Both the position numbers and the translations under genes were made by a program. Of a stretch of 64,000 bases of DNA, positions 23,560 to 37,423 are shown one piece after another; the first letter of the stretch is position 1; each line of letters begins with the position of its first letter. The notes below the pieces were generated by a model. That model worked only from the letters and a program-made list of their open reading frames with translations. It ran no database searches and was not told the origin of the DNA. The DNA comes from Halotalea alkalilenta (GTDB taxonomy: Bacteria; Pseudomonadota; Gammaproteobacteria; Pseudomonadales; Halomonadaceae): positions 1,798,001-1,862,000 of the forward strand of contig NZ_CP015243.1 of NCBI RefSeq assembly GCF_001648175.1, given 5' to 3'.

Positions 23560-24375
23560 TCAGCCAAGGTCGAAGGTGGCGCCGCCGTCGATGCGCAGGT
23601 CGTGCAGGGTGATGTGCCCGGCACGGGGGGAGAGCAAAAACAGGATCGCGTCGCTGACGTCGTCGGGGGTGGCGATCTTGCCCAGCGGGATGCCGGCCTT
23701 GAAGCTTGCGAGCGAGCCTTCGATCACCTTGGCCCGGCCGCTCTCGTCCGCCCACATGCCGCGCTGCATGCCGGTGTCGGTGGAGCCGGGAGAGACGACG
23801 TTGCAACGGATGCCGTATTCGGCGAGCTCGAGACCGAGGCAGCGGGTCAGCTGGGTCGCCGCGGCCTTGGAGGCGGCGTAGGCGCCCATCTCCATCCGCG
23901 GGGTACCGGCGGCGTTGGAGCTGACCACCACGATCGCGCCGCGACGGCGCGGGATCATCCGGCGTGCCACCGCGCGGGCGAGGCGGAAGGGGCCGCCTGC
24001 GTTGATCGAAAGCGCCCGCTCCCATTCGTGGTCCTCTAGATCGACCACCCGGCCCATCTGCAGCACGCCTGCGACGCTTGCGAGGTGATCGATCGGCCCG
24101 TGGATGGCCTCGGCCGCGGCGACGGCCTGGTCGACGGCCTGGGTGTCGGCGACGTCGAGCGGATGCAGCGAAAGCCGCTCGCCTGCGTCGAGCGTGGCGG
24201 CGAGCCGCTCGAGTCCCGCTTGCTTGAGATCGAGCGCGGCAACCCTTGCGCCCTGCTCGAGCAGGCGTCGCACCAAGCACTCACCGATGCCCTGGGCGGC
24301 GCCGCTGACCACCACTACCTGGCCTTCGAACTCTTGGTCCCGAGGCTTTGGCGAGAGGGTCGTTTCACCGCTCAT
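23560..24375 (-). CDS. entA: 2,3-dihydro-2,3-dihydroxybenzoate dehydrogenase
   Basis: A 271-residue short-chain dehydrogenase that oxidises 2,3-dihydro-2,3-dihydroxybenzoate to 2,3-dihydroxybenzoate with NAD. The nucleotide motif is [10 protein letters not shown] near residue 20, the catalytic motif is YAASK, and [16 protein letters not shown] matches the EntA/DhbA group. The frame is open to 24408, but the ATG at 24375 overlaps the entB stop (ATGA) and fits the family start. It is the last gene of entC-entE-entB-entA, which together make and activate the catechol unit. Confidence 0.92.
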
Positions 24376-25244
24376 TTCATTCCACCGGCGCGGAAGATCT
24401 CGCGCCATTCGTCAAGCGTCGCATGCTCGACCAGATCGGCGAAGCCGACCTCGATGCCCTCCCGGCGCAGCCGCTCGGCGAGGCTCATCAGACGAATCGA
24501 GTCCATCCCTGCGAGCATCAGGTTCTCGTCGCCGGGAATCTCCTCCAGCGGGGTCTCGAGCAGCCGCTCGATCTCCGCCTCGAAGGCGGCCAGATCGAAG
24601 CCGCGGGCGCTGTCCAGCGCGGCGATGGTGTCGGCGGTGGTCAGGCTCACGCCGCAGTTGCGCGCGACGTAGTCGGTGGCCATGCGGTGCTCCGACGCAG
24701 AGAAGTCCGCCACCGCGTCGTAGACGAAGAACGGCTGGACATCCTGCATGAAGGCCTCGAGCGCGGTCGCCATGCAGCCGATGTGGCCATAGATGCCGGT
24801 GATGATCAGCTGGTCGCGACCCAGCTCGCGCAGTTGGGCGCGCAGGTCGGAGCGCTGGAAGGCGCTGTAGCGCCACTTGGTCAGTACCACCTCGTCCGCG
24901 GTGGGGGCGAGGCGGGCGACGATCGGGTAGAGCTCGGGATGGGCGGGCAGGCCCGGGCCCCAGAAGTCGTTGAGCAGGGCGCGGTCGCTATCGGGCTGTT
25001 CGGTCGGCTGCGCGGTGTAGAACACCGGGATTCCATTCGCGCGCGCATGGTCGAGCAGCTGGCGAGTGTGGTCGAGCAGCATCGGAATCGGTGCCTGGTC
25101 GCGGTAGTACTTGTCGAGGAAGTACTCCTGCATGTCATGGATCAGCAGCGCCGCACGGCCTGCTTCCGGCCGCCAGTCGACCCGGTTGTCGGGACGAGCC
25201 TCGGCGCCGGGCATCGGATAGGGCGTGATCGCGGGGATGGTCAT
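24372..25244 (-). CDS. entB: Isochorismatase / aryl carrier protein
   Basis: A 290-residue bifunctional protein. The N-terminal isochorismatase domain (about 1-205) has RAALLIHDMQEYFLDKY, VLTKWRYSAF and the GIYGHIGCMATALEAF segment, and removes pyruvate from isochorismate. The C-terminal aryl carrier domain has LAGMDSIRLM, where Ser249 should carry phosphopantetheine loaded with 2,3-dihydroxybenzoate by EntE. The carrier then feeds the EntF condensation domain. No phosphopantetheinyl transferase gene is in the window. It is 64 bases after entE and overlaps entA by four bases. Confidence 0.95.
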   Translation of the reverse strand: MTIPAITPYPMPGAEARPDNRVDWRPEAGRAALLIHDMQEYFLDKYYRDQAPIPMLLDHTRQLLDHARANGIPVFYTAQPTEQPDSDRALLNDFWGPGLPAHPELYPIVARLAPTADEVVLTKWRYSAFQRSDLRAQLRELGRDQLIITGIYGHIGCMATALEAFMQDVQPFFVYDAVADFSASEHRMATDYVARNCGVSLTTADTIAALDSARGFDLAAFEAEIERLLETPLEEIPGDENLMLAGMDSIRLMSLAERLRREGIEVGFADLVEHATLDEWREIFRAGGMK

Positions 25245-25308: not shown

Positions 25309-26976
25309 TCAGGCGAAGCGCTCCTTGAGCAGTTCGCGTAGCACTTTGCGGCTCACCTTGCCGACCCCGCTCTGGGGGAAGGCGTCGATGAATTCGAAGC
25401 GATCGGGCACCTTGTAGGCGGCGAGGCGTCCGCGTACGAAGCGGGCGAGATCACGCTTGTCGAGCGCCTGGCCATCGCGGGCGACGACGAATGCGCAGCT
25501 GCGCTCCCCGAGGTAGGCGTCCGGCATGCCGACCACCGCGACGTCATGGACGCCGGGATGGGCGAGCAGCACGTTCTCGACCTCGTCCATCGCGATCTTC
25601 TCGCCGCCGCGGTTGATCTGGTCCTTCTCGCGGCCCTCGACGATCAGATCGCCCTGCTCGGTGCGCACGGCGATGTCGCCGGTGCGGTAGAAGCCGTCCG
25701 CGGTGAACGAGGCCGAGTTGACCTCGGGCGCGTTGAAGTAGCCGCGAATGGTGTAGGGACCGCGGGTGATCAGATGGCCGGCCTGGCCGGGGGGAAGGTC
25801 ACGGTCCTGGTCATCGACGATACGCACCTCGTCGAGCGGCGAGATCGGTCGTCCCTGGGTGTGGATGATCAGCTCCTCGGGATCGTCAAGGCGGGTGTAG
25901 TTGACCAGCCCCTCGGCCATCCCGAACACCTGCTGGAGCGTGCAGCCGAGCGTCGGACGCACTCGCCGCGCCGCCTCGCTGACCAGTTTGGCGCCGCCGA
26001 CCTGGAGCACTTCGAGGCTCGCCAGCTGCTCGACGCCTCGGCTCGCCGCCTCCAGCCAGATCAGCGCCAGCGGTGGCACCAGCGCGGTGATGGTGACCCG
26101 CTCGCGCTCGATCAGCGGGAAGCAGACATCCGGGCTGGGGCGCGGTGCCAGCACCACTTGGCCACCGGCGTAGAGTACGCCGAGGAAACCGGGCGAGCTC
26201 ATCGGAAAGTTATGGGCGATCGGCAGGCTGACCAGGTAGACGCTGTCGGCATCGATGCCGCAGAGCTCGTTGCTGCCGCGCAGGCTATAGATGTAGTCGT
26301 CGTGGCGCCGGGGAATCAGCTTGGAGAGCCCGGTGGTGCCGCCGGAGAGCTGGAAGAAGGCGAGCTCGCGCGAGTGCGGTGGGGCTGGCAGCTCGTCCGC
26401 CGCGGGGGCGGTGGCGAGCAGGTCGTCGAAGGCGACCAACTCCTGCGCCTCGCCGCAGATCACCAGATGCTCGAGCGTGGGCACCGCGGCCTGGGTCTCG
26501 CGTGCGAGCGTGCGGTGGTCGAAGCCTTCGAAACGGTCGACGGTGATCAGCGCGCGTGCGCCGCTGAAGCGGCAGAAGTGCTCGAGCTCGTTGCGGCGAT
26601 GGGCGGGCAGCGCGAACACCGGCAGCGCGCCGAGGCGGAACAGCGCGAAGCAGGCAACGATGAACTCGGCCCGATTGGGCAGCTGCAGTACCACCCGGTC
26701 GCCCTTGTCGATCCCTAGTCGGTACAGGCCGAGAGCGCAGCGCTCGACCCGCGCGTCCAGCTCGCGATAGCTCAATCGAGCCTCGCCATCGACCACGGCG
26801 ATTCGCTCGCCTTGGTCCGCGGCGCGTTGACGCAGGAAGCCACTGAAGGTCTCGCCTCGCCAATAGCCGGCGGCGACGTAGCGTTCGACGAACTCCGCCG
26901 GCCAGTCCGGGCAGAGGGCGGCGACGTCGTCGTCGGGTGCCACCTGGATCGGGTGGGCGTTGGCTGCGTGGTTCAT
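25309..26976 (-). CDS. entE: 2,3-dihydroxybenzoate-AMP ligase
   Basis: A 555-residue stand-alone adenylation enzyme that activates 2,3-dihydroxybenzoate and loads it onto EntB. Motifs include [21 protein letters not shown] (A3 core region), [24 protein letters not shown] and [11 protein letters not shown]. The substrate pocket reads [12 protein letters not shown]. The Asn in this position (near residue 255) is typical of 2,3-dihydroxybenzoate enzymes, while salicylate enzymes carry Cys. Its ATG overlaps the entC stop (ATGA). Confidence 0.95.
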
Positions 26977-28211
26977 GCATCTGTCCCTGGAGTGGATGAG
27001 GTGGTGGACGCCTGGCCGAGCGAGTCATCGAGGCCCAGCGCCGCCAGCATGGTACCGAGCTTGGTGCCGGTCTCGGCGAACTCGCTGGCGGGTGTCGAGC
27101 CCTCGACCAGCCCGGCGCCCGCGTAGAGAGTGAGGTGTTCGCCACGCAGCTCGGCGCAGCGCAGCGAGAGCGCCCATTCACCGTCGCCCGAGGCGTCGCA
27201 CCAGCCGACCAGGCCGCTGAACAGCTCGCGCTCGAACGGTTCGAGCCGGCGGATCGCAGCGAAGGCGGCGGCGTTGGGGTGACCACATACCGCCGGCGTC
27301 GGGTGCAGCGCGCGAGCGATGGCGAGCGACGAGGGCGCGGGCTCGATCAGCTCGCCGCTGAGCTCGGTCGACAGGTGCCAGAGCTTGCCGGTGCTCAGAA
27401 GCGTCGGGCCCTCAGGCACCTCGAGCTGCGAGCAGAACGGGCGCAGCGCCGCGACCACCGCGTCGATCACCAGCGCGTGCTCACGCAGGTCCTTTTCGGA
27501 GTGCAGCAGGGCCGCTGCGGCCAGGCGATCCTCCTCGGGGTCTCGGCGGCGAGCGGCCGAGCCCGCCAGTGGGTTGACCATCACCCGTCGGCCGATTCGC
27601 CGCACCATCAACTCGGGGCTGGCGCCGAGGAACACCGCCGGCGACTGGCGCGCCTCCAGCGGAGTGGCGAACACATAGGCTTCGGGATTGCGATGCAGCA
27701 GCCGGCGCAGCAGCAGGGTGGGGTCGAGCGCGCCGTCGGTCTCGACCTCGAGGGTTCGGGCCAGCACCACCTTGTCGAGGCGCCCGGCGCGGAACTCGGC
27801 CAGCGCCGCCTCGACCCCGGCGCAGTAGCCGGCGCGGTCCGGATGCGGTGTGACGCGGCGCGCCTTGGCGTCGAGGGCCGGCTCGGTCTGCTGGGCCGCC
27901 CAGTGGGTCAGCGCGGAGCGCTCCGTGCAGCGTCGCGGCAGCAGCAGCCGGCCGTGGCGATCATCGGCGAACGGCAGCGCGCCGACCACCCGCGGATTCG
28001 CAATCCCCGCGCGCCGGCCTTGTTCGAGCAGCTCGGCGAGGGCTTGTTCGCCTTGATCACCGCGCGGAGAGCGCGTGTCCAGCCAGTCGCCGGCGAGCAG
28101 GGCGCGGGTCGGCGAGCTGAACAGGAAGTCTTCCGCGCGATAGGCCGAGACCAGTGCCTCGGCGGTGGTCTCGTCGCCGGTGGGATGGGGGATGACCATC
28201 TCGTCGTTCAC
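26973..28211 (-). CDS. entC: Isochorismate synthase
   Basis: A 412-residue chorismate-binding enzyme that converts chorismate to isochorismate, the entry into catechol siderophore synthesis. Motifs are [61 protein letters not shown], and the C-terminal [16 protein letters not shown]. The start is a GTG with AGGAG eight bases upstream. A Fur-box-like sequence lies about 70 bases before the start. First gene of entCEBA. Confidence 0.94.
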
Positions 28212-28369: not shown

Positions 28370-29158
28370 CTAGGCGGTATCCGGGCCCCGGCATCTGGTC
28401 TCGCGTCGTGCCCCGGGCACCCGCAGCACCGCGTCGCAGAGCTCGCTGAGCGGCTGCGTTTCACCGCCCCAGGGATTGACCCGGCGTGCGGCGAGATCGC
28501 CCTCGACGTCGATCAGCTCAAGATCGCGGCAGGCGCTATCGAAAGGCATCAAGCGCGGTGGCAGTTCCGGCCACAGCGTACGCAGTGCGATGCCCTCGTC
28601 GAGCAGCTGGCTGGCGAGGGTGACACGCCCATCGACCGGTGAGCGGGCCAGGTGGCGCATGCCGAAGAGCAAAAGCCCTGGGCGACCGCTCGCGAGCAGG
28701 CGCTGCTCGATGCAGCCGAGGAAGGCCTTGCGGCGGTGCCTGTCGCGCTCGGCGCACGGCCACTCGCCGGCCGGCTCGGCCAGCCACATCCTCATCCGCC
28801 GCTGCGCGGGCCGCTTGCGATTGACCGCCCGCAGGCGGCGCAGCAAAGCGGCATAGACCGGGTGGCGCCAGAGCGTGGCATGGGGGCCATCGTTCCAGAT
28901 CGGCTTCAGCGCGCCGGCGCCGAGGCGGCTGCCGGCCAGGTAGGCGTCGAGCAGTGCCTGGTGGCGCTGGCAGCCGAACTCGACCACCAGGTCCTGGCAG
29001 CGCGACGCGATCGCCTCGCTGAGTATCAGCTCGGTCAGCGCACGCATCACCTTGGGCGTCAGATGGGCTTCACCGAGGCCGACCAGCCCGGCTTGGTCGA
29101 ACCATCCAGCGAGCGCGGAGGCGACGTCAGCGAAGCCTTTGGTCACGGTGCGAGCCAT
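28370..29158 (-). CDS. Putative hydrolase of the erythromycin esterase/ChaN-like superfamily, co-translated with entF
   Basis: A 262-residue protein I do not recognise as a named siderophore gene. Its motif layout resembles the EreA/ChaN/TraB-like fold. LGEAHL near residue 30 (GExH) is followed by LVVEFG near residue 60. Then come a W..P..LLRRLRAVN..RP..RRMR block near residues 95-122, and LLLFGMRHLARS near residue 166, where Ere proteins have a late conserved His. No signal peptide is seen, so it is likely cytoplasmic. The ATG lies inside the end of entF (16-base overlap), so it should be translated with the synthetase. A role in opening, editing or releasing the siderophore ester is possible (inference). 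No Fes-type esterase is found in the window. A heme-binding ChaN-like role is the main alternative. Confidence 0.6.
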   Translation of the reverse strand: MARTVTKGFADVASALAGWFDQAGLVGLGEAHLTPKVMRALTELILSEAIASRCQDLVVEFGCQRHQALLDAYLAGSRLGAGALKPIWNDGPHATLWRHPVYAALLRRLRAVNRKRPAQRRMRMWLAEPAGEWPCAERDRHRRKAFLGCIEQRLLASGRPGLLLFGMRHLARSPVDGRVTLASQLLDEGIALRTLWPELPPRLMPFDSACRDLELIDVEGDLAARRVNPWGGETQPLSELCDAVLRVPGARRETRCRGPDTA

Positions 29159-32100
29159 TGATCGATCCGGGTGGCGATCCGCGCCAGCATCTCGGGGCGG
29201 ATCATGCCGGGATGGTCGCAGTCGAGATCGATGCCGACGATCTCGCCTTCGACGTAGGGTGCCCAGGCGGAGCGTTCGAGCCAGTGCTGCTCGCGCGGCG
29301 CGGCGGCGGTGAAGAACAGCATCCCACCGCGGTAGCGCAGGTGGTGCGAGGCGCGCACCAGACGGCTCGAGTTGATCACCACGTCCACCAGCCGGTCGAG
29401 GGTCGCGGTATCGAGGCTCGCCATCGCGTGCTGTTCGTGCTCGAGCAGTGCGACCACGGTGGCGCGCTCGACTGGCGCCCCGGGCGGCGCCTCGACGCCG
29501 GCGAGACGCAGCAGCGCGACCAGCGCCTCGTGCTCATCGGGTGGCATCATGTGACGCCACAGGTCGCTCGGGTAGGCGTCGAGCAGGGCGAGTAGCTCGA
29601 CTTCCTCCCCATCCTCCTGCAGTAGCGCGGCCACGGTATGGGCGACCATGCCGCCCAGCGACCAGCCGAGCAGCCTGTAGGGGCCATGTGGCTGGCGGGT
29701 ACGCAGCGCGGCCAGATAGTCGCGCGCCATCGCCTCGAGGCTCTCAGGCGGTGTCTCGCCTTCCCGCAGCCCTTCGGCCTGGACGCCGATCACCGCGCCG
29801 TCGCCGCCCAGTACCCGCGCAAGCCCCGCGTAGCACCAGGCCAGCCCGCCGGCCGGGTGGAAGCAGAACAGCGTGGGCGTCCGGCTGCCAGGCGCGGCGC
29901 GGCGCAGGGTGAGGAGGCGATCGAGCGCGCCCTCGCGCTGCGCCTGGTCGAGCTCGCGCGCCATCCGCGCAGGGGTAGGGGCGGTGAACACGGTGGCGAT
30001 CGAGACCTCCTCGCCGGTCGCCTCGCGGATCCTCAGTGCCAGTTGCACCGCCGCCAGCGAGTGCCCGCCGAGGTCGAAGAAGTCGTCATCGGCGCCGAAT
30101 TCGTCGAGCGCCAAGGTGGCGGCGAATAGCGCGCAGAGTTCGCGCTCGCGCGGCGATGACGGCGCGCGACGCGCAGGCGTAGCCGCCTCGGGAGGCGGCG
30201 GCAGGGCGCGTCGATCGAGCTTGCCGTTGGGGCTCAGCGGCAGTCGCTCGATCGGCACCAGTGCACTCGGCACCATGTAGTCGGGCAGCCAGTGGTGAAG
30301 GTGATCGTCGAGCTCGGCTCGCCAGTCGATGGCGCTATCCTCGGCCAGCACCAGGTAGCCGATCAGCCGTTCGGCATGGAGATTGACCGCGGCGGCCTCG
30401 ACCGCCGGGTGGCGCTCGAGCACCGCCTCGATCTCGTCGAGCTCCAGGCGCTGGCCGCGCAGCTTGACCTGATGGTCGATGCGGCCGTGGTACTCGAGCT
30501 CGCCGGCCGGGTTCCAGCGCGCCAGATCGCCGCTTTTATATAGTCGCTGGCCGTCGAGGCCGGTGACGAAGCGCTCCGTGGTGAGCTCAGGGCGGCCGAT
30601 GTAGCCGCGCGCCAGGTTGCGCCCGCCGATGTGGAGTTCGCCGATCACCCCGACCGGCAGGCGCAGGCCCTGCGGGTCGAGGATCTCGATCCGGGTATTC
30701 CAGATCGGGTGGCCTATCGGTACCGAGGCCCGATCCTTCAATCGCTCGCAGGGCCAGTAGGTGACGTCGACCGCGGCCTCGGTGGGGCCGTAGAGGTTGT
30801 GCAGTCGTGCGCTGCCTTCGAAGGCACGCTGGAAGCGCTCGACCAGACCGCGCTTGAGCGCCTCGCCGCTGGCGAACACCTGTCGCAGGCTCGGCAGCCT
30901 GCGCGGGGCATGCTCGAGCTCGTCGAGGAAGGCCGCGAGCATCGAGGGCACGAAGTGCAGCGTGGTGATCGACTCGGCGGCGATGATCTCGGCCAGGTAG
31001 CGCGGGTCGCGGTGGCCTTCGGGGCGCGCCATCACCAGGGTGGCGCCGTGGAGCAGCGGCCAGAACAGCTCCCACACCGAAACGTCGAAGCCGACCGGGG
31101 TCTTTTGCAGTACCCGGTCGCGGGCACTCAGGCGGTATTCGTGCTGCATCCACTCCAGCCGGTTGACGATCGCACGGTGCTCGATCACCACCCCCTTGGG
31201 CTCGCCGGTCGAGCCGGAGGTGAACAGCACGTAGGCCGGATCGGTCGGCGAGCGCGCGGGGAGCCGGCGCTGGTCGAGTGCGGAAGGTGCGGTCAGACGC
31301 TCGTCCCGGGCGTCGAATTCGAGCCACTCGACTCCCTCGGGCAGCGCTTGGGCGTGGTCCGCGTCACAGATCACCAAGAGCGGTGCCGCGCGTTCGATCA
31401 TCCGCTGCCAGCGCCCCGGCGGCTGGTCCAGCGGCAGCGGCATGTAGGCCGCGGCGCACTTGTGGATCGCCAGCAGGGCGATTTCGAGTTCCAGCGAGCG
31501 CGGCAGCGCTACGCCGATCACCCGGGGCGTCTGCGGCGCGGGCGCGGCGAGCGTGTCGAGGCGCGCGAGAATCAGCGCGGCGAGACGCCGGGCACGGGTA
31601 TCGAGGGTGCGGTAGTCGAGCCGCTCGCCCTCGAAGGCCAGTGCCTCGGCGTCCGGGGTGCGTGCCACCTGACGCTCGAACAGCGTCGCCAGGTCGGTTT
31701 CCTCCACCGGATGGTCGGTGTCGTTCCAGCGCTCGATGCGCTCGAGCTCCTCCGCGGTGGCGATCGGCAGCTCGCCGACCGGCTGGCGCGGATGGGTGGC
31801 CAGCGTCTCGCACCACTGCACCAACCGGGTCAGATGATCAAGGGCATCGGGCGCCGAGTAGAGCTTCGGGTTGCTCTCCAGGGTCAGATGCAGTGCGTCA
31901 TCGTCGTTGCCGAGGTAAAGGCTTAGGGTCATGTCGTCGACCGGCCCGGGAGCGAGGTGGTGCGTCTCGGTGGCGCAGCCGTCGAACAGCCGCGGCTGGG
32001 CGAACGGCAGGATGTTGACCTGCGGTCCGGACAGCGGCGCCTCGCCGGGCAGCCGGTCGAGCTCGCGGGCGAGCCATTCATGGCGATAGCGCTGGTGGCG

Positions 32101-33096
32101 GCGGGCGCCGCTCAGCGCCTTGCGCAGCTGGGCGAGCCAGTCGACCAGCCCAGTCTCCAGGCCGGCTTCGATCCGCAGCGGTAGTACGTTGACCACGGAT
32201 ACCGGCGTGCGCAGCGCGCTGGCATCGAGCCGACCCATCATCGGCAGGCCGAGCACCGGCGATGCGCTGGCGGTCATCCGGGCGAGATAGCTCGCGATCA
32301 TCGCGAGCAGCAGTTCGGGCAGGGTGGCATCGAGCGAGTCGGCCAATCGCGCGAGTGCGGCCCGACGCTGTGCATCGAGCGTAACGCGATGGCGCTGAGG
32401 GCGAGGGGCGGCGAGCGAGAAACGCCCCGCCAGCGAGACGGCTTCGCCGGCCTCGGCCAGCTGGCCGTGCCAATAGTCGCGATCCTTCAGGCAGGCCGGA
32501 CTCTCGCGATAGGCGCGCTCGGCCTCGAGCCGGGCCTCGAGCCTGCCGAACCAGGCCTCGCGCGGCGCCACTCCGGTGCCGAGCGCCTGATAATGCTCAG
32601 CGGCACGCTGCTGCAGCAGTCCATAGGCATAGGCGTCGAACTGCAGGTGATGAATGCTCGAGAACCATATCCAGTGCCGCTCGGCGATGCGCAGCAGCGC
32701 CTGCTCCACCAGCGGATCGCTGGCCGGGTCCAGCACACGCTCGAGCCGTCCCAGCATCCATTCCCAGGCAGCCTCCCGCGGGGTGGGGTGGGCGGAGAGA
32801 TCGATGCGCGCGAGCGGGATCGGTGGATGGGCCTCGAGCTGTTGGAAGGGGCCTTCGGTGTCCACATCGAACCGCGCCCGCAGCACTTCGACCTCGGCCA
32901 GGCTCGATTCGATCGCGCAAGCGAGCCGGTCGGCGTCGAGCGCACCGCGAATTTCCAGCGCCTGGCCGGTGAGGTAGGCCTGGGCCGAGGCGCCCAGCTG
33001 CTGGGCATACCAGACGCCGCTCTGGCTGCCGGTCAATGGGTATCGCTGCACATCGATCAGATTGGCAGCGGTGGGATGGGAAGTGTAGTGGGACAC
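29143..33096 (-). CDS. entF: Enterobactin-type nonribosomal peptide synthetase EntF (C-A-T-TE)
   Basis: A 1317-residue synthetase. The condensation domain (about 15-455) has HHLQFDAYAYG near residue 149. The adenylation domain (about 475-980) has VLFTSGSTGEPKG near 625 and YGPTEAAVDVTYW. The carrier domain has LGGHS near 1010. The thioesterase has GWSLGG near 1145, Asp in LLDAYP near 1172 and His in DHPGM near 1293. Pocket residues seen in DVSVW, LHFVPSM, FASGEA and the TEAAVDV region match the serine code of E. coli EntF. It should join dihydroxybenzoyl units from EntB to serine and release a cyclic or linear oligomer. The GTG start has CCAGGAG upstream. It is the first gene of an operon with the hydrolase-like gene. 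Confidence 0.94.
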   Translation of the reverse strand: MSHYTSHPTAANLIDVQRYPLTGSQSGVWYAQQLGASAQAYLTGQALEIRGALDADRLACAIESSLAEVEVLRARFDVDTEGPFQQLEAHPPIPLARIDLSAHPTPREAAWEWMLGRLERVLDPASDPLVEQALLRIAERHWIWFSSIHHLQFDAYAYGLLQQRAAEHYQALGTGVAPREAWFGRLEARLEAERAYRESPACLKDRDYWHGQLAEAGEAVSLAGRFSLAAPRPQRHRVTLDAQRRAALARLADSLDATLPELLLAMIASYLARMTASASPVLGLPMMGRLDASALRTPVSVVNVLPLRIEAGLETGLVDWLAQLRKALSGARRHQRYRHEWLARELDRLPGEAPLSGPQVNILPFAQPRLFDGCATETHHLAPGPVDDMTLSLYLGNDDDALHLTLESNPKLYSAPDALDHLTRLVQWCETLATHPRQPVGELPIATAEELERIERWNDTDHPVEETDLATLFERQVARTPDAEALAFEGERLDYRTLDTRARRLAALILARLDTLAAPAPQTPRVIGVALPRSLELEIALLAIHKCAAAYMPLPLDQPPGRWQRMIERAAPLLVICDADHAQALPEGVEWLEFDARDERLTAPSALDQRRLPARSPTDPAYVLFTSGSTGEPKGVVIEHRAIVNRLEWMQHEYRLSARDRVLQKTPVGFDVSVWELFWPLLHGATLVMARPEGHRDPRYLAEIIAAESITTLHFVPSMLAAFLDELEHAPRRLPSLRQVFASGEALKRGLVERFQRAFEGSARLHNLYGPTEAAVDVTYWPCERLKDRASVPIGHPIWNTRIEILDPQGLRLPVGVIGELHIGGRNLARGYIGRPELTTERFVTGLDGQRLYKSGDLARWNPAGELEYHGRIDHQVKLRGQRLELDEIEAVLERHPAVEAAAVNLHAERLIGYLVLAEDSAIDWRAELDDHLHHWLPDYMVPSALVPIERLPLSPNGKLDRRALPPPPEAATPARRAPSSPRERELCALFAATLALDEFGADDDFFDLGGHSLAAVQLALRIREATGEEVSIATVFTAPTPARMARELDQAQREGALDRLLTLRRAAPGSRTPTLFCFHPAGGLAWCYAGLARVLGGDGAVIGVQAEGLREGETPPESLEAMARDYLAALRTRQPHGPYRLLGWSLGGMVAHTVAALLQEDGEEVELLALLDAYPSDLWRHMMPPDEHEALVALLRLAGVEAPPGAPVERATVVALLEHEQHAMASLDTATLDRLVDVVINSSRLVRASHHLRYRGGMLFFTAAAPREQHWLERSAWAPYVEGEIVGIDLDCDHPGMIRPEMLARIATRIDQWLAP

Positions 33097-33166
33097 TCGC
33101 CTGCGACTCCTGGAACGCCATCTGTCGGTCGAAAAGTGTGACTTAAATTAAAGCTTAAGGTCAACC

Positions 33167-33185
33167 AAATGAGAATAATTTTTGT
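33167..33185 (-). promoter_or_regulatory. Putative Fur box upstream of entF
   Basis: AAATGAGAATAATTTTT on the plus strand (33167-33183) resembles the AATGAGAATNATT Fur core. It lies in an AT-rich stretch about 75 bases before the entF start, between the divergent entF and fecI genes. Confidence 0.6.
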
Positions 33186-33292
33186 TCATTTTTGGGCCGC
33201 ATCGCTGCCGTGCGCACCAACCTGGTGCTTCTCGGCGTGCCAGGCGCGCATCGCGTCGTCATGACGAATCGGCTACCATGCCGTCTGATCAA

Positions 33293-33311
33293 TTCAAATG
33301 ATAATGATTCG
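33293..33311 (+). promoter_or_regulatory. Putative Fur box upstream of fecI
   Basis: TCAAATGATAATGATTCGG (33293-33311) contains AATGATAATGATT, a strong half of the GATAATGATAATCATTATC consensus. It stands about 55 bases before the sigma factor ATG and would make the signalling pair iron-repressed. Confidence 0.65.
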
Positions 33312-33363
33312 GCTTATGCCGTCTGGCGGGCTACCCCCATCGTAGTGGAGATTTCCTCAGGTC

Positions 33364-33855
33364 ATGGTCCATGACGTGCATTCGCTCTACAGCCATCACC
33401 GTGCCTGGCTGGCCCGCTGGCTGACGGGCCGTCTCGACGATCCAGGCGCAGCTTCGGACCTGGTCCAAGATACCTTCCTGCGCTTGCTCGGCGTCGATGC
33501 CCGGCAGCTCGAGCGACTGCATGAGCCGCGCGCCTATCTGGTCACCGTCGCCCGGCATTTACTGATCGACCACCAGCGCCGCCGTGCGCTCGAGCGCGCC
33601 CTGCTCGAGGCCCTCGCTGCCTGTCCGGCCTCCTCGGTGCCCTCCAGCGAAGAGCAGATGATCATGCTCGAAACCTTGCTCGAGATCGAACGTCTGCTCG
33701 ACGGCCTGGCACCCAAGGTGCGCAGCGCCTTTCTGATGGCGCGTCTCGAGGGACTCGACCAGGCCGAGATCGCCCGCCGCCTCGGTGTCTCCACGCGCAG
33801 TGTCAGGCGCTATCTGGTCGAGGCGCTGAGCCACTGTCTGCAGGCCAGCGGATGA
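33364..33855 (+). CDS. fecI: FecI-like ECF RNA polymerase sigma factor
   Basis: A 163-residue extracytoplasmic-function sigma factor of the iron-uptake (FecI/FpvI) group. Region 2 has LYSHHRAWLARWL and DPGAASDLVQDTFLRLL, followed by REPRAYLVTVARHLLIDHQRRR-like sequence. Region 4 has LDGLAPKVRSAFLMARLEGL and AEIARRLGVSTRSVRRYLVEAL. It should direct transcription of the receptor gene downstream when FecR signals ferric siderophore. Its stop overlaps the fecR ATG (ATGA). A Fur box lies upstream. Confidence 0.92.
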   Translation: MVHDVHSLYSHHRAWLARWLTGRLDDPGAASDLVQDTFLRLLGVDARQLERLHEPRAYLVTVARHLLIDHQRRRALERALLEALAACPASSVPSSEEQMIMLETLLEIERLLDGLAPKVRSAFLMARLEGLDQAEIARRLGVSTRSVRRYLVEALSHCLQASG

Positions 33856-34814
33856 GCGACGCCGAGCCGCCGCTGTCGTCGCGAGTGGCTCGGGAAGCGG
33901 CGCGCTGGTGGCTGAAGCTCGAGGAGCGCTCGTCGAATCCCAGCGTCCACGCCGCCTTCGAGCGCTGGCTGTCGCGAGACCCCCAGCATCTCGAGGCCTG
34001 GCAGCGGCTGGCCGCGCTGGACCAACGGATCAGCGCGCTGCCGCCTGGGATCGGCGAAAAGACCTTGGACGGCGCCCGGCGCCAACGGCGTATGTTACTC
34101 AAGACCACGGCGATGGTCGCGATCGGTTTGCCGCTGGCAGCGGAGGGAACGCGCCGGCTGCCCTGGAGCAACTGGCTCGCCGACCAGCGTACCGCGGTGG
34201 GGGAGCGGCGCGAGATCACGCTGGCCGACGGCGGGCGACTATGGCTCAACACCGCAAGCGCCGCCGACATCGAGTATGACCGGCGCGGCCGCCGGCTGCG
34301 TTTGATCGCAGGCGAGCTGGTGGTTCGAACCGCCGCCGACGTCGAGCGACCCGCGCGCCCCTTTTTCGTCGATACCCCGAGCGGGCGCGTCGAGGCGTTG
34401 GGGACTTACTTCGGGGTGCGCCTGGAGGGCGCGACGGTCGATCTCCTGGTGTTGGAGGGGCGGGTACGGGTGGATACGCGAGGCGGCGCCTCCCGAACGA
34501 TCGATGCGGGCCAGTCGACGCGCTTCAATCGCGATGAGATCGCGCTACCGACGGCGGGCGATACCACCTCGATCGGTTGGACCCAGGGGCTTCTCTATGC
34601 CGAAGACTGGCGGTTGGACCGGGTCGTCGAAGAGCTCGCCCGCTATCGCAGTGGCTGGCTTTCATGCGACCCGGCGGTGGCGGCGCTGCGGATCTCGGCG
34701 GTGCTGCGCCTCGACGACGTCGATGCCGCACTGGCGACGATCGCGGCCAGCCTGCCGGTGCGGGTGCGCTACCGCACCCGTTACTGGGCCACGCTCGGCA
34801 CGCTGGAAGGCTGA
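33852..34814 (+). CDS. fecR: FecR-like anti-sigma factor / signal transducer
   Basis: A 320-residue inner-membrane sigma regulator. The N-terminal cytoplasmic domain (DUF4880 type) has EAARWWLKLEERSSNP and FERWLSRDPQHLEAWQRL. One transmembrane helix follows (TTAMVAIGLPLAAEG, about residues 84-98). The periplasmic FecR domain has ITLADGGRLWLNTASAADIEYD, LIAGELVVRT and FFVDTPSGRVEALGTYFGVR. The C-terminal STN-like end (LARYRSGWLSCDPAVAALRISAVL) should contact the receptor's signalling domain. Translationally coupled to fecI. Confidence 0.92.
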   Translation: MSDAEPPLSSRVAREAARWWLKLEERSSNPSVHAAFERWLSRDPQHLEAWQRLAALDQRISALPPGIGEKTLDGARRQRRMLLKTTAMVAIGLPLAAEGTRRLPWSNWLADQRTAVGERREITLADGGRLWLNTASAADIEYDRRGRRLRLIAGELVVRTAADVERPARPFFVDTPSGRVEALGTYFGVRLEGATVDLLVLEGRVRVDTRGGASRTIDAGQSTRFNRDEIALPTAGDTTSIGWTQGLLYAEDWRLDRVVEELARYRSGWLSCDPAVAALRISAVLRLDDVDAALATIAASLPVRVRYRTRYWATLGTLEG

Positions 34815-34870
34815 TCACTCCCGGGCTGAGCGACCCGGTCACGGAGCGGATGAATGAACGACCCGGCGAT

Positions 34871-34896
34871 GGAAAAAATTATCTTTTCGATGTCCG
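34871..34896 (+). promoter_or_regulatory. Candidate FecI-type promoter of the receptor gene
   Basis: GGAAAA at 34871 followed about 16 bases later by GTCC resembles the GGAAAT...TC pattern of FecI-dependent promoters. It lies in the 152-base gap between fecR and the receptor gene, about 75 bases before its ATG. The match is short and could be chance. Confidence 0.4.
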
Positions 34897-34966
34897 CTTT
34901 TATTCATTGGTTCGTCATCCCTGTCATCACCGATCGACAACTTCTCCTGTCAGGGAAACCACAACC

Positions 34967-37423
34967 ATGTCATTCGATTCTCGCCGTCCCTCCACCGTTT
35001 GCTGGCGTCGTCTCGCGGCGCGGGGAGGCCTGGCGGCGGCGCTGGGTTGCGCCCTCGGCGTATCGTTGCCCGCCTTCGCTCAGCAGCCAGCGGCTCAGCC
35101 GGGTGCCGCGCGCAGCTATACGATCCCTGCCGGCCCCTTGGGTCCGGCGCTGATGCGTTTCGCCAGTGAGGCCGGAGTCAACCTGGTGCTCGACCCGCAG
35201 CTGGTCGACGGGCGCACCAGCCCAGGCGTGCAGGGCAGTCTCTCGGTGGCGCAAGGATTCTCCCTGCTGCTCCAGGGCAGCGGCCTGGAGAGTGTGCCGA
35301 GCGGTAATGGAGGCTACGTGCTGGTCGAGCGCAGCGCGCAGAGCGGCTCTTTGGATACGCTGACGGTGATCGGCACCCGGTTCGTCGCCGGCAATGATCG
35401 GTTGGTGCCGGAGTACGCCGGCGGCCAGGTGGCCAGCGGCGGACGGTTGGGGGTGCTTGGCCAGCAGCAGGCGTTCGACGTGCCGTTCAACATCACCTCC
35501 TATACCGCCAAGAGAGTGGAGGACCGCCAGGCGAAGACGCTTGGCGATGTGCTGAAGAGCGATGCCTCGGTACAGGTCGGCTCGGGCTATGGCAACTACG
35601 CCGAAAGCTTTCGTATTCGCGGCTTCACGCTCTCCGGCGATGACGTTTCGTTCGGCGGCCTCTACGGCGTGCTGCCGCGGCAGGTGGTGGTACCCAACGC
35701 GATCGAGCGGGTCGAGGTGCTCAAGGGGGCGAGCGCGTTTCTGAACGGCGTACCGCCGGGCGGGTCGGGCGTCGGCGGCTCGATCAACCTCGAGCCCAAG
35801 CGTGCCGGCGACGAGCCGCTGCTGCGCACCACCCTGGGCTACGCCACTGACGGCTACGGCGAGGCCGCGGTCGACGCTGGGCGCCGCTTCGGCGACGACA
35901 ATCAGTTCGGTGCACGGATCAACCTGCTTCGTGGCAGCGGCGGTTCGCCCGTCAGCGGTGACGATGACGAGCGCTCGAGCTCCTTTGCGCTGGCGCTGGA
36001 CTATCGCGGTGAGCGGCTGCGCAGTTCGCTCGACGTCGGTTACCAGAAGCAGGTCTACCAGGGCACTCGGCGCGGTATCTATCTCGGCGGCGAGCTGACC
36101 CAGATGCCGCAGGCGCCTTCGCCGCGAACCAACTACACCCCCTCCTGGGCTTACTCGGAGGTCGAGACCACCTACGGCATGTGGCGCGGCGAGTACGACT
36201 TCGCGCCCAACTGGACCGGCTACCTGGCGCTGGGCGGCAATGACACCGAGGAGTACGGCGTCTATAGCTCTCCGACGGTGAACAACCTTGCCGGCGATGC
36301 CACCGTCGGGCGCATGGATGTCCCCTTCGAGGCCAAGAGCTTCGCCTCCCAGGCGGGCGTGCGTGGCAGCTTCGACACCGGTGCGGTTTCCCACTCGGTC
36401 AACCTCGGCTATTCCGGGGTGCTGCGCAGGTCCTACAGCGCCTACCGGATGACCTCGAACTCGGATACCAACATCTTTGATCCGGTGGACGTGCCGGCCC
36501 CTACCGACTACTACGACTTCCCCGGCGGGGACATGGACGACCCTAACCTGCGCAACCGCGTGCGTGCCAACGGCGTCTCTCTCTCCGACACCTTGTCGAT
36601 GTTCGACGACAAGCTGCGCCTGCTCGCGGGTGTTCGCTACCAGGAACTCACCGTGCGCAACTACAGCTATGAAGGCGCGCCGGAAAACGCCTTCGACGAG
36701 TCGGCCTACACTCCGGTCTACGGCATCGTCTATCAGCCGTGGGAGACGGTTTCGTTCTACGCCAACTATGTCCAGGCCTTGCAGCAGGGGCCGACGGTGC
36801 CCTCCAGCGAAGGCTATCCCAACGCAGGCCAGGTGCTGGGCACGGTGCGTTCGAAGCAGCACGAGGCCGGGGTCAAGTTCGACTATGGCCGCATCGGCGG
36901 CGGTATCAGCCTGTTCCAGATCGAACAGCCCAACGCCTCGGGCGACGGTGAGGTCTATGCGCTCAACGGCGAGCAGAAAAATCGCGGGCTCGAGCTCAGC
37001 GTCTTCGGCGAACCGCTGGTCGGCTGGCGCGTGCTGGGGGGCGTGACCTTCCTCGATACCGAGCTCAGCGGCACCACCGATGGCGCCAACGATGGCAACG
37101 ACGCCATCGGCGTGCCGAAGTACCAGGCCAATCTGGGCAGCGAGTGGGACCTGTCCGGCGTCGAGGGACTGACCTTGACCGGCGATGTGGTACGCACCGG
37201 TTCGCAGTACGCCGACGACGGTAACCAGTATCGCCTCGAGCCTTGGACCCGCCTGGATCTTGGCGTGCGCTATGCCACCCGGCTCGCCGGCAGCCCGGTG
37301 ACCTGGCGCGCTGGAATCGAGAACGTGACCAACAACGGCTACTGGGAGAGCGTCGGCGAGAGCGGCTACGTCACCCAGGGCATGCCGAGGCTGTTCAAGC
37401 TTTCGATGTCGGTCGATCTCTGA
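34967..37423 (+). CDS. TonB-dependent siderophore receptor with STN signalling domain
   Basis: An 818-residue outer-membrane transducer. The order is a signal peptide (LAAALGCALGVSLPAFA), an STN signalling domain (about 50-121: YTIPAGPLGPALMRFASEAG), a TonB-box-like DTLTVIG, the plug (FRIRGFTLSGDDVSFGGLYG, IERVEVLKGASAFLNGVPPGGSGVGGSIN), and a 22-strand barrel ending in MPRLFKLSMSVDL with terminal aromatic/hydrophobic residues. It should bind a ferric siderophore and signal to FecR. Whether it takes the cell's own catecholate or a foreign siderophore is not clear from sequence. The frame is open from 34577, but the ATG at 34967 with CAGGGAAA upstream gives the signal peptide. Confidence 0.93.
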   Translation: MSFDSRRPSTVCWRRLAARGGLAAALGCALGVSLPAFAQQPAAQPGAARSYTIPAGPLGPALMRFASEAGVNLVLDPQLVDGRTSPGVQGSLSVAQGFSLLLQGSGLESVPSGNGGYVLVERSAQSGSLDTLTVIGTRFVAGNDRLVPEYAGGQVASGGRLGVLGQQQAFDVPFNITSYTAKRVEDRQAKTLGDVLKSDASVQVGSGYGNYAESFRIRGFTLSGDDVSFGGLYGVLPRQVVVPNAIERVEVLKGASAFLNGVPPGGSGVGGSINLEPKRAGDEPLLRTTLGYATDGYGEAAVDAGRRFGDDNQFGARINLLRGSGGSPVSGDDDERSSSFALALDYRGERLRSSLDVGYQKQVYQGTRRGIYLGGELTQMPQAPSPRTNYTPSWAYSEVETTYGMWRGEYDFAPNWTGYLALGGNDTEEYGVYSSPTVNNLAGDATVGRMDVPFEAKSFASQAGVRGSFDTGAVSHSVNLGYSGVLRRSYSAYRMTSNSDTNIFDPVDVPAPTDYYDFPGGDMDDPNLRNRVRANGVSLSDTLSMFDDKLRLLAGVRYQELTVRNYSYEGAPENAFDESAYTPVYGIVYQPWETVSFYANYVQALQQGPTVPSSEGYPNAGQVLGTVRSKQHEAGVKFDYGRIGGGISLFQIEQPNASGDGEVYALNGEQKNRGLELSVFGEPLVGWRVLGGVTFLDTELSGTTDGANDGNDAIGVPKYQANLGSEWDLSGVEGLTLTGDVVRTGSQYADDGNQYRLEPWTRLDLGVRYATRLAGSPVTWRAGIENVTNNGYWESVGESGYVTQGMPRLFKLSMSVDL

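Follow-up and report, generated by a model that had tools for sequence, protein, structure and literature searches.

A gene of the Ere/ChaN-like hydrolase superfamily coupled to entF in Halotalea alkalilenta and its relatives: a possible unrelated replacement for Fes

The stretch of 64,000 nucleotides of Halotalea alkalilenta analysed here (assembly GCF_001648175.1, contig NZ_CP015243.1, positions 1,798,001 to 1,862,000; in the following, the window) contains an ent siderophore locus in which a small gene, here called X, follows entF and overlaps its end. A preliminary description of X, made from the sequence alone, had proposed an Ere/ChaN-like hydrolase that might open the trilactone of enterobactin or act on EntF-bound intermediates. 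In several bacterial lineages X occupies the place where fes might be expected, and it may be an unrelated replacement for the Fes esterase.

The X gene and the ent locus of the window

X starts with an ATG codon on the minus strand and encodes 262 residues (table 1). The open reading frame (ORF) is indeed, as first described, one that starts inside the last 16 bases of entF, which ends at 29143; a GTG codon 12 bases downstream of the ATG is an alternative start, with a 4-base GTGA overlap with the entF stop. X is under purifying selection, the ratio of non-synonymous to synonymous substitution rates (dN/dS) with respect to another H. alkalilenta genome (G001) being 0.069/0.195 = 0.35. Halotalea, Carnimonas, Kushneria, Larsenimonas and Phytohalomonas all keep the frame, and the third-position GC content (0.85) is close to that of entF, entC and entE (0.86-0.87). 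A chance ORF is ruled out by these three features. The X protein of the window shows no signal peptide by eye; signal-like and twin-arginine translocation (Tat)-like starts, as well as the labels FepB-like, permease-like, EntD-like, YncE-like and FrmB-like given to neighbours, were judged by eye throughout.

Table 1. Features of the X gene and of the surrounding ent locus in the window.
Feature	Position	Strand	Basis
X, TIKI/Ere/ChaN-superfamily hydrolase-like gene, 262 aa	28370..29158	-	ORF, predicted fold, profile alignment, conservation
Overlap of X ATG and entF end, 16 bases	29143..29158	-	sequence reading
Codons E30-A31-H32 (GExH), aligned to E/H of EreC-type GExxH and to ChaN GExH	29063..29071	-	alignments, conservation
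Codon E60 (VVEFG), counterpart by alignment of the second Glu in Ere and ChaN	28979..28981	-	alignments, conservation
Codon R142, possible EreC R261 equivalent	28733..28735	-	placed only by spacing to H169; R in 26/27 rows
Codon H169 of FGxxHL, aligned to ChaN His; EreC H289 equivalence by order only	28652..28654	-	alignment, conservation
entF, C-A-T-TE non-ribosomal peptide synthetase (NRPS), A-domain pocket columns like E. coli EntF	29143..33096	-	domain search, column comparison
entC, isochorismate synthase	26973..28211	-	TIGR00543 over cut-off
entE, 2,3-dihydroxybenzoate-AMP ligase	25309..26976	-	TIGR02275, 719.5 bits vs cut-off 723.55
entB, isochorismatase-ArCP	24372..25244	-	named by eye and place; NCBIfam matches weak, sub-cut-off
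entA, 2,3-dihydro-2,3-dihydroxybenzoate dehydrogenase	23560..24408	-	TIGR04316 over cut-off
fecI-type sigma factor, fecR, TonB-dependent receptor with STN domain	33364..37423	+	domain search; divergent from entF
entF/fecI divergent gap (267 bases), Fur-box-like sites at 33165, 33294 and 33300	33097..33363	.	12-13/19 consensus matches

The minus-strand gene order is entF, X, entC, entE, entB, entA. The window EntF has its C, A, T and TE domains, and ten A-domain columns (one of which lay a single position off the usual set) are identical to those of E. coli EntF in 11 of 13 EntFs compared, those of two genomes outside the family Halomonadaceae (G344 and G423) differing at one, so that serine is the predicted substrate. 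Three of the 14 Fur-box-like sites of the window (12 or more of 19 positions matching a Fur consensus) fall in the entF/fecI gap, two of them overlapping; resampled windows have 1 to 13 such sites per 64 kb, and the sites in the gap are suggestive only.

Predicted fold and candidate catalytic residues

Searched against known structures, the predicted structure of X turned out to have the Ere/ChaN-like fold proposed at the outset. The EreC and Bcr135 structures, to which sequence identity is 11-18%, match it better than ChaN in coverage and Z (241-245 versus 187 residues). By sequence profile X is instead nearer ChaN, the hhalign probability being 96-98 for ChaN/PF04187 (local E 1e-9, 182 columns) as against 71 for Ere. 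X is related to ChaN/PF04187 by both profile-profile comparison and fold; of the Ere-family features, it has the first Glu/His pair, spaced one residue shorter, and the second Glu. The beta-sheet core with two His and two Glu, by which excerpts of PMC6254334 define catalytic members of the TIKI superfamily, is also found in the predicted structure, with residues equated by alignment and order.

PF05139 gives no match to X at E up to 10 and about 12 bits in two of ten homologues (cut-off 26.4); PF04187 gives 14.7 bits with X (gathering cut-off 27.7) and weak matches in five of the ten homologues, the best scoring 22.3. X matches no NCBIfam model, the Fes model NF007758 included, nor PF11806 or PF00756, and a sequence search of the PDB with X alone gave no match; a viral structure library gave one, at E 7e-6.

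The motifs that had suggested an erythromycin esterase order, namely LGEAHL (residues 28-33), LVVEFG (57-62), the block W97..P100..LLRRLRAVN113..RP..RRMR and LFGMRHLARS, are all present and their residues are conserved in homologues; the likeness to Ere fails at the first motif, which is E-x-H as in ChaN and RRSP and not the Ere E-x-x-H. In a 27-row alignment (the window, 21 rows from 20 loci of a named scan and five others, including several close relatives, so that rows are not independent) no row departs from H32, E60 or H169, position 30 is always E or D, and R142 is R in 26 rows. Both Ere and ChaN have residues aligned to E30, H32 and E60, and ChaN has one aligned to H169, whereas the alignment to the Ere profile stops short of H169 and R142. 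The working residues of EreC are E47, H50, E78, H289 and R261, with no metal (PMC7979712), and E3900, H3902, E3930 and H4030 of RRSP are each essential (PMC6254334).

Linkage to entF and the distribution of Fes

X is present in 8 of 58 relatives and in 15 of 275 genomes of the family (5 of 24 genera), and the profile search found it in 10 of 390, 3 of 369 and 3 of 398 genomes of the order, class and phylum samples, respectively, each of which includes the window genome and its near kin. These make a total of 21 genomes, G399 (order search; a partial match of 63 positions with an internal stop) being left out. A tie of the homologues to siderophore loci, on which the preliminary description depended, is apparent: X lies directly after entF on the same strand in 18 of the 21 genomes (15 of the family, G344, G423 and G913), and in all 18 it starts 1-23 bases from where the entF stop codon ends. 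G565, G575 and G624, the last with two X copies, are the remaining three; entF is missing from the nearest 1.5 kb of their X genes, and stretches of 18-19 kb matched none of entA, B, C, E and F. EntE (E <=1e-100) is encoded in 18 of 18 entF-linked and none of the three unlinked genomes; among 23 X-less genomes of the family it was found in four, i.e. in one (G002) of 17 relatives picked without regard to an esterase and in three of six chosen for a PF11806 match (G018, G022 and G194).

In all 12 genomes of Kushneria, Larsenimonas and Phytohalomonas the entF-X pair stands apart from entE, which in the four genomes read is surrounded by the other ent genes; X, therefore, goes with entF itself. 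In these genera (L037-L043) the pair occupies a similar place among housekeeping genes, with a dnaB-like flank on one side and a ferrochelatase-like one on the other by eye, far from the other ent genes. In G016 a gene for a siderophore-interacting reductase (PF08021/PF04954) lies between entA and entB, and similar reductase genes were recognised by eye in G010 and G163.

The 20 loci of the named scan comprise 12 of Halomonadaceae, Oceanobacter and seven others (Planctomycetota, Kofleriaceae, Roseisolibacter, Streptosporangiaceae and metagenome-assembled genomes of a gammaproteobacterium, Sphingomonadales and Cyanobacteria). No entB, C, E or F match was found by tblastn in stretches of 4 to 21 kb at Oceanobacter and the seven others, of which the Kofleriaceae locus gave weak entA-like and fecI-like matches. 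Several of the relatives not linked to entF have signal- or lipoprotein-like starts by eye; judging from such sequences, the branch tied to entF has at its side a broad family whose proteins mostly look exported. Oceanobacter kriegii (L030:8100-10179, also L085) has two exported-looking homologues in tandem, one lipoprotein-like, with ABC-transporter-like neighbours by eye and no ent genes; uncharacterised relatives from several phyla (L087-L093) carry VVEFGxxRHQ-like and DPPIDW-like motifs, two of them (L092, L093) with an Ere-like extra residue between E/D and H. Spread of X on plasmids was rejected, no tblastn match to it being found in 72,556 plasmid records.

EntF was compared for 12 of the 18 linked genomes, G022 and G194, with their large multi-module NRPS neighbours, being set aside. 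The TE motif is GWSxGGM in all 12 X-linked EntFs; E. coli and G018 have GYSLGGT, and G002 has GWSVGGV. In a tree of 15 EntF sequences the three X-less ones are separate with support 1.000. An association of X with one type of EntF and of Fes with a second is only suggestive, with three X-less sequences, one of which (G002) is a 1016-residue part; the entF of G002 (L132:11245-15448) reads in two frames in the draft sequence. In the X tree the unlinked protein of G565 pairs with that of G913 (support 0.997), so that entF linkage does not follow this tree without exception.

True Fes is absent from the linked genomes, all 18 of which were examined with one model or the other. Six of the 275 family genomes encode the N-terminal domain PF11806, and all 15 that bear X lack it; five of the six proteins are exported-looking, longer or otherwise different by eye. 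The curated Fes model exceeds its cut-off in one of 14 genomes (G018) and in none of the 12 X-bearing ones among them; G344, G423 and G913 give no match to it at all. G018, which lacks X, encodes an authentic Fes, scoring 483 bits against a cut-off of 222, immediately upstream of entF. This E. coli-type fes-entF pair (L136:9042-14467) lies apart from entCEBA and looks acquired as a unit; the gene order in E. coli is fes-ybdZ-entF.

That neither Fes nor IroE is encoded in the window, as first noted, is correct: the genome has three PF00756 matches, all outside it, and no PF11806 match. One of the three (G000:C1:1381776-1382885; L101:5777-6886, minus strand) is an exported-looking IroE/PfeE-type esterase near a TonB-dependent receptor; because such a periplasmic-type protein is encoded elsewhere in the genome, only the cytosolic Fes is really missing. 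PF00756 exceeds its cut-off in 17 of the 18 linked genomes (in G913 it matches only below), each of the 17 having one match near 200 bits that was taken for a housekeeping FrmB-like protein. Strict mutual exclusion of X and the known trilactone esterases was rejected, as exported-looking PF00756 esterases coexist with X in G000, G001, G008, G010, G017, G031, G165 and G168 (read from selected genome stretches, the lower matches of other X genomes being read in part). Some of them adjoin a TonB-dependent receptor or binding protein by eye. Excerpts of PMC8001512 place the action of Fes in the cytoplasm and that of PfeE and Cee in the periplasm; X would be at most a cytosolic partner, and not always the sole esterase.

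The proposed role of X and its comparison with known systems

We favour, with a probability of about one in two, the reading that X is an ester hydrolase for the 2,3-dihydroxybenzoyl-serine (DHB-Ser) ester siderophore made by the adjacent EntF, and that it serves in place of Fes; that it is some hydrolase of this pathway, iron release and biosynthesis taken together, is distinctly probable. The EntF product would be a DHB-Ser oligo-ester, either enterobactin or something closely related. In a mechanism like that proposed for EreC, a water molecule placed with E60 and H169 would lose a proton to H32, itself held by E30; the hydroxide would attack the seryl ester carbonyl, open the trilactone and cut it to DHB-Ser units, from which a reductase could free the iron. 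X would then do the cytosolic job of Fes on an unrelated fold. It also seems possible, at slightly short of even odds, that X represents a second, unrelated type of enterobactin-class ester hydrolase, with a TIKI/Ere fold recruited from a mostly exported-looking family and tied to one EntF clade as Fes is to another, used in the cytoplasm or, in one lineage, the periplasm.

Several observations weigh against Fes replacement. The zero overlap of X and the Fes N-domain in 275 genomes is about what chance would give (0.3 expected). Eight X genomes, that of the window included, also encode an exported-looking IroE/PfeE-type esterase, and ester cleavage could, therefore, proceed without X. In G002 the entC-E-B-F-A cluster includes neither X nor Fes; downstream of the ent genes is encoded an exported-looking protein that matches the Fes model below its cut-off (37.5 bits). 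The window EntF scores 811 bits against the NCBIfam EntF cut-off of 2400, which makes the exact product unsure. Neither X nor the ten homologues reach the Pfam cut-off of either superfamily arm, the global profile alignment of X with Ere was unsuccessful and the local one ends before H169, the superfamily also includes proteases, heme binders and members without the motif, and the hydrolase activity of X is itself a prediction. Finally, a fusion with MbtH hints at a role during synthesis.

A hydrolase on the biosynthetic side, which would edit or release EntF products by clearing stalled acyl thioesters or linearising the trilactone before export, is the alternative that survives best, although it is unlikely. 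X would be a functional cousin of EntH, a type II thioesterase. Such a role would suit the strict pairing with entF even where entE is elsewhere, the translational overlap in all linked genomes and the homologues of G344 and G423 (L031:7740-9128 and L032:8354-9823), which belong to one genus outside Halomonadaceae, lie directly after entF and carry MbtH at the N-terminus (in L031 it scores 30.7 bits against a cut-off of 27; a second search gave 35.4 and 34.8 bits for the two). MbtH normally binds an adenylation domain. The cluster of these genomes includes, by eye, a binding protein, permeases, an ATPase, a phosphopantetheinyl transferase and a receptor, plus entA. On the other hand, the window EntF retains its own TE domain, Ere enzymes act on free lactones, and in the entF-linked G913 the coupled start codon opens a Tat-like signal (MNRRRFIQLAG), with which X would not meet EntF-bound intermediates. 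The early suggestion of action on such intermediates is, thus, weakened by this one member and kept alive by the two fusions. If both fusion and signal are right, the common substrate should be free and accessible on both faces of the inner membrane, a description that suits the siderophore better than EntF-bound intermediates. No MbtH protein is encoded in any of the 15 X-bearing Halomonadaceae, the window genome included, and their EntFs may work without this partner, though in E. coli ybdZ lies next to entF; the idea that X substitutes for MbtH was discarded, MbtH being absent also from the X-less G018 and fused to X in two genomes.

A non-enzymatic role like that of ChaN, in which X would bind heme, iron or the ferric siderophore, draws on the nearest sequence profile and the weak PF04187 matches, but appears improbable given the better fold match with EreC/Bcr135, the window protein having no lipoprotein or export signal by eye, and the conserved full 2His/2Glu set, much of which ChaN relatives also have. 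Least likely of all is that X acts on another substrate, as a protease or in the detoxification of another lactone or peptide, and hitch-hikes with entF: related, often exported-looking copies do lie outside siderophore loci (in Oceanobacter, Planctomycetota, Kofleriaceae and Roseisolibacter, among others), the superfamily member RRSP is a protease (PMC6254334), and PMC8939145 mentions in graspetide loci a distant Ere homologue (modification or resistance) and a Tiki/TraB-family protein, both of unclear function, a distant precedent for such proteins in natural-product loci; yet entF adjacency and entE are kept in all linked genomes and entE is missing from all three unlinked ones.

To our knowledge, the ester cleavage of catecholate trilactone siderophores has so far been explained by one fold (Fes, IroD, IroE, PfeE and Cee). 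No paper linking an Ere/ChaN/TIKI protein to a siderophore NRPS was recognised among the open-literature matches listed, and one may exist elsewhere. If X is such an esterase, the fold of the Ere resistance enzymes would gain a natural siderophore counterpart, which would suggest that macrolide esterases arose from a background that included hydrolases of natural esters; genomes with entF and without fes would be explained, and the mining of genomes for metallophore clusters would gain a marker gene.

Compared with known systems, X (262 residues) shares its predicted fold with EreC (PDB 6xcq/6xcs) and the Bacillus cereus Ere-family protein Bcr135 (3b55; also 2qgm), which have about 400 residues; unlike Ere, it has E-x-H in place of E-x-x-H, lacks a PF05139 match and belongs to a siderophore operon. 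ChaN (PF04187, Cofac_haem_bdg; PDB 2g5g), its best sequence-profile match, has the same E-x-H spacing. IroE, PfeE and Cee, periplasmic enzymes of the PF00756 type, would share the presumed substrate, and one X homologue has a Tat-like signal; X itself is not of this type and coexists with such a protein in the window genome. Fes of E. coli and G018 is, like X, a neighbour of entF with presumably the same substrate, but combines PF11806 and PF00756, neither of which X matches, in an unrelated alpha/beta hydrolase fold. In RRSP, a TIKI-superfamily endopeptidase of Vibrio, the E-x-H spacing and the 30-residue distance between the two Glu (3900/3930; 30/60 in X) are equal to those of X, and the hydrolase core is, according to PMC6254334, metal-independent.
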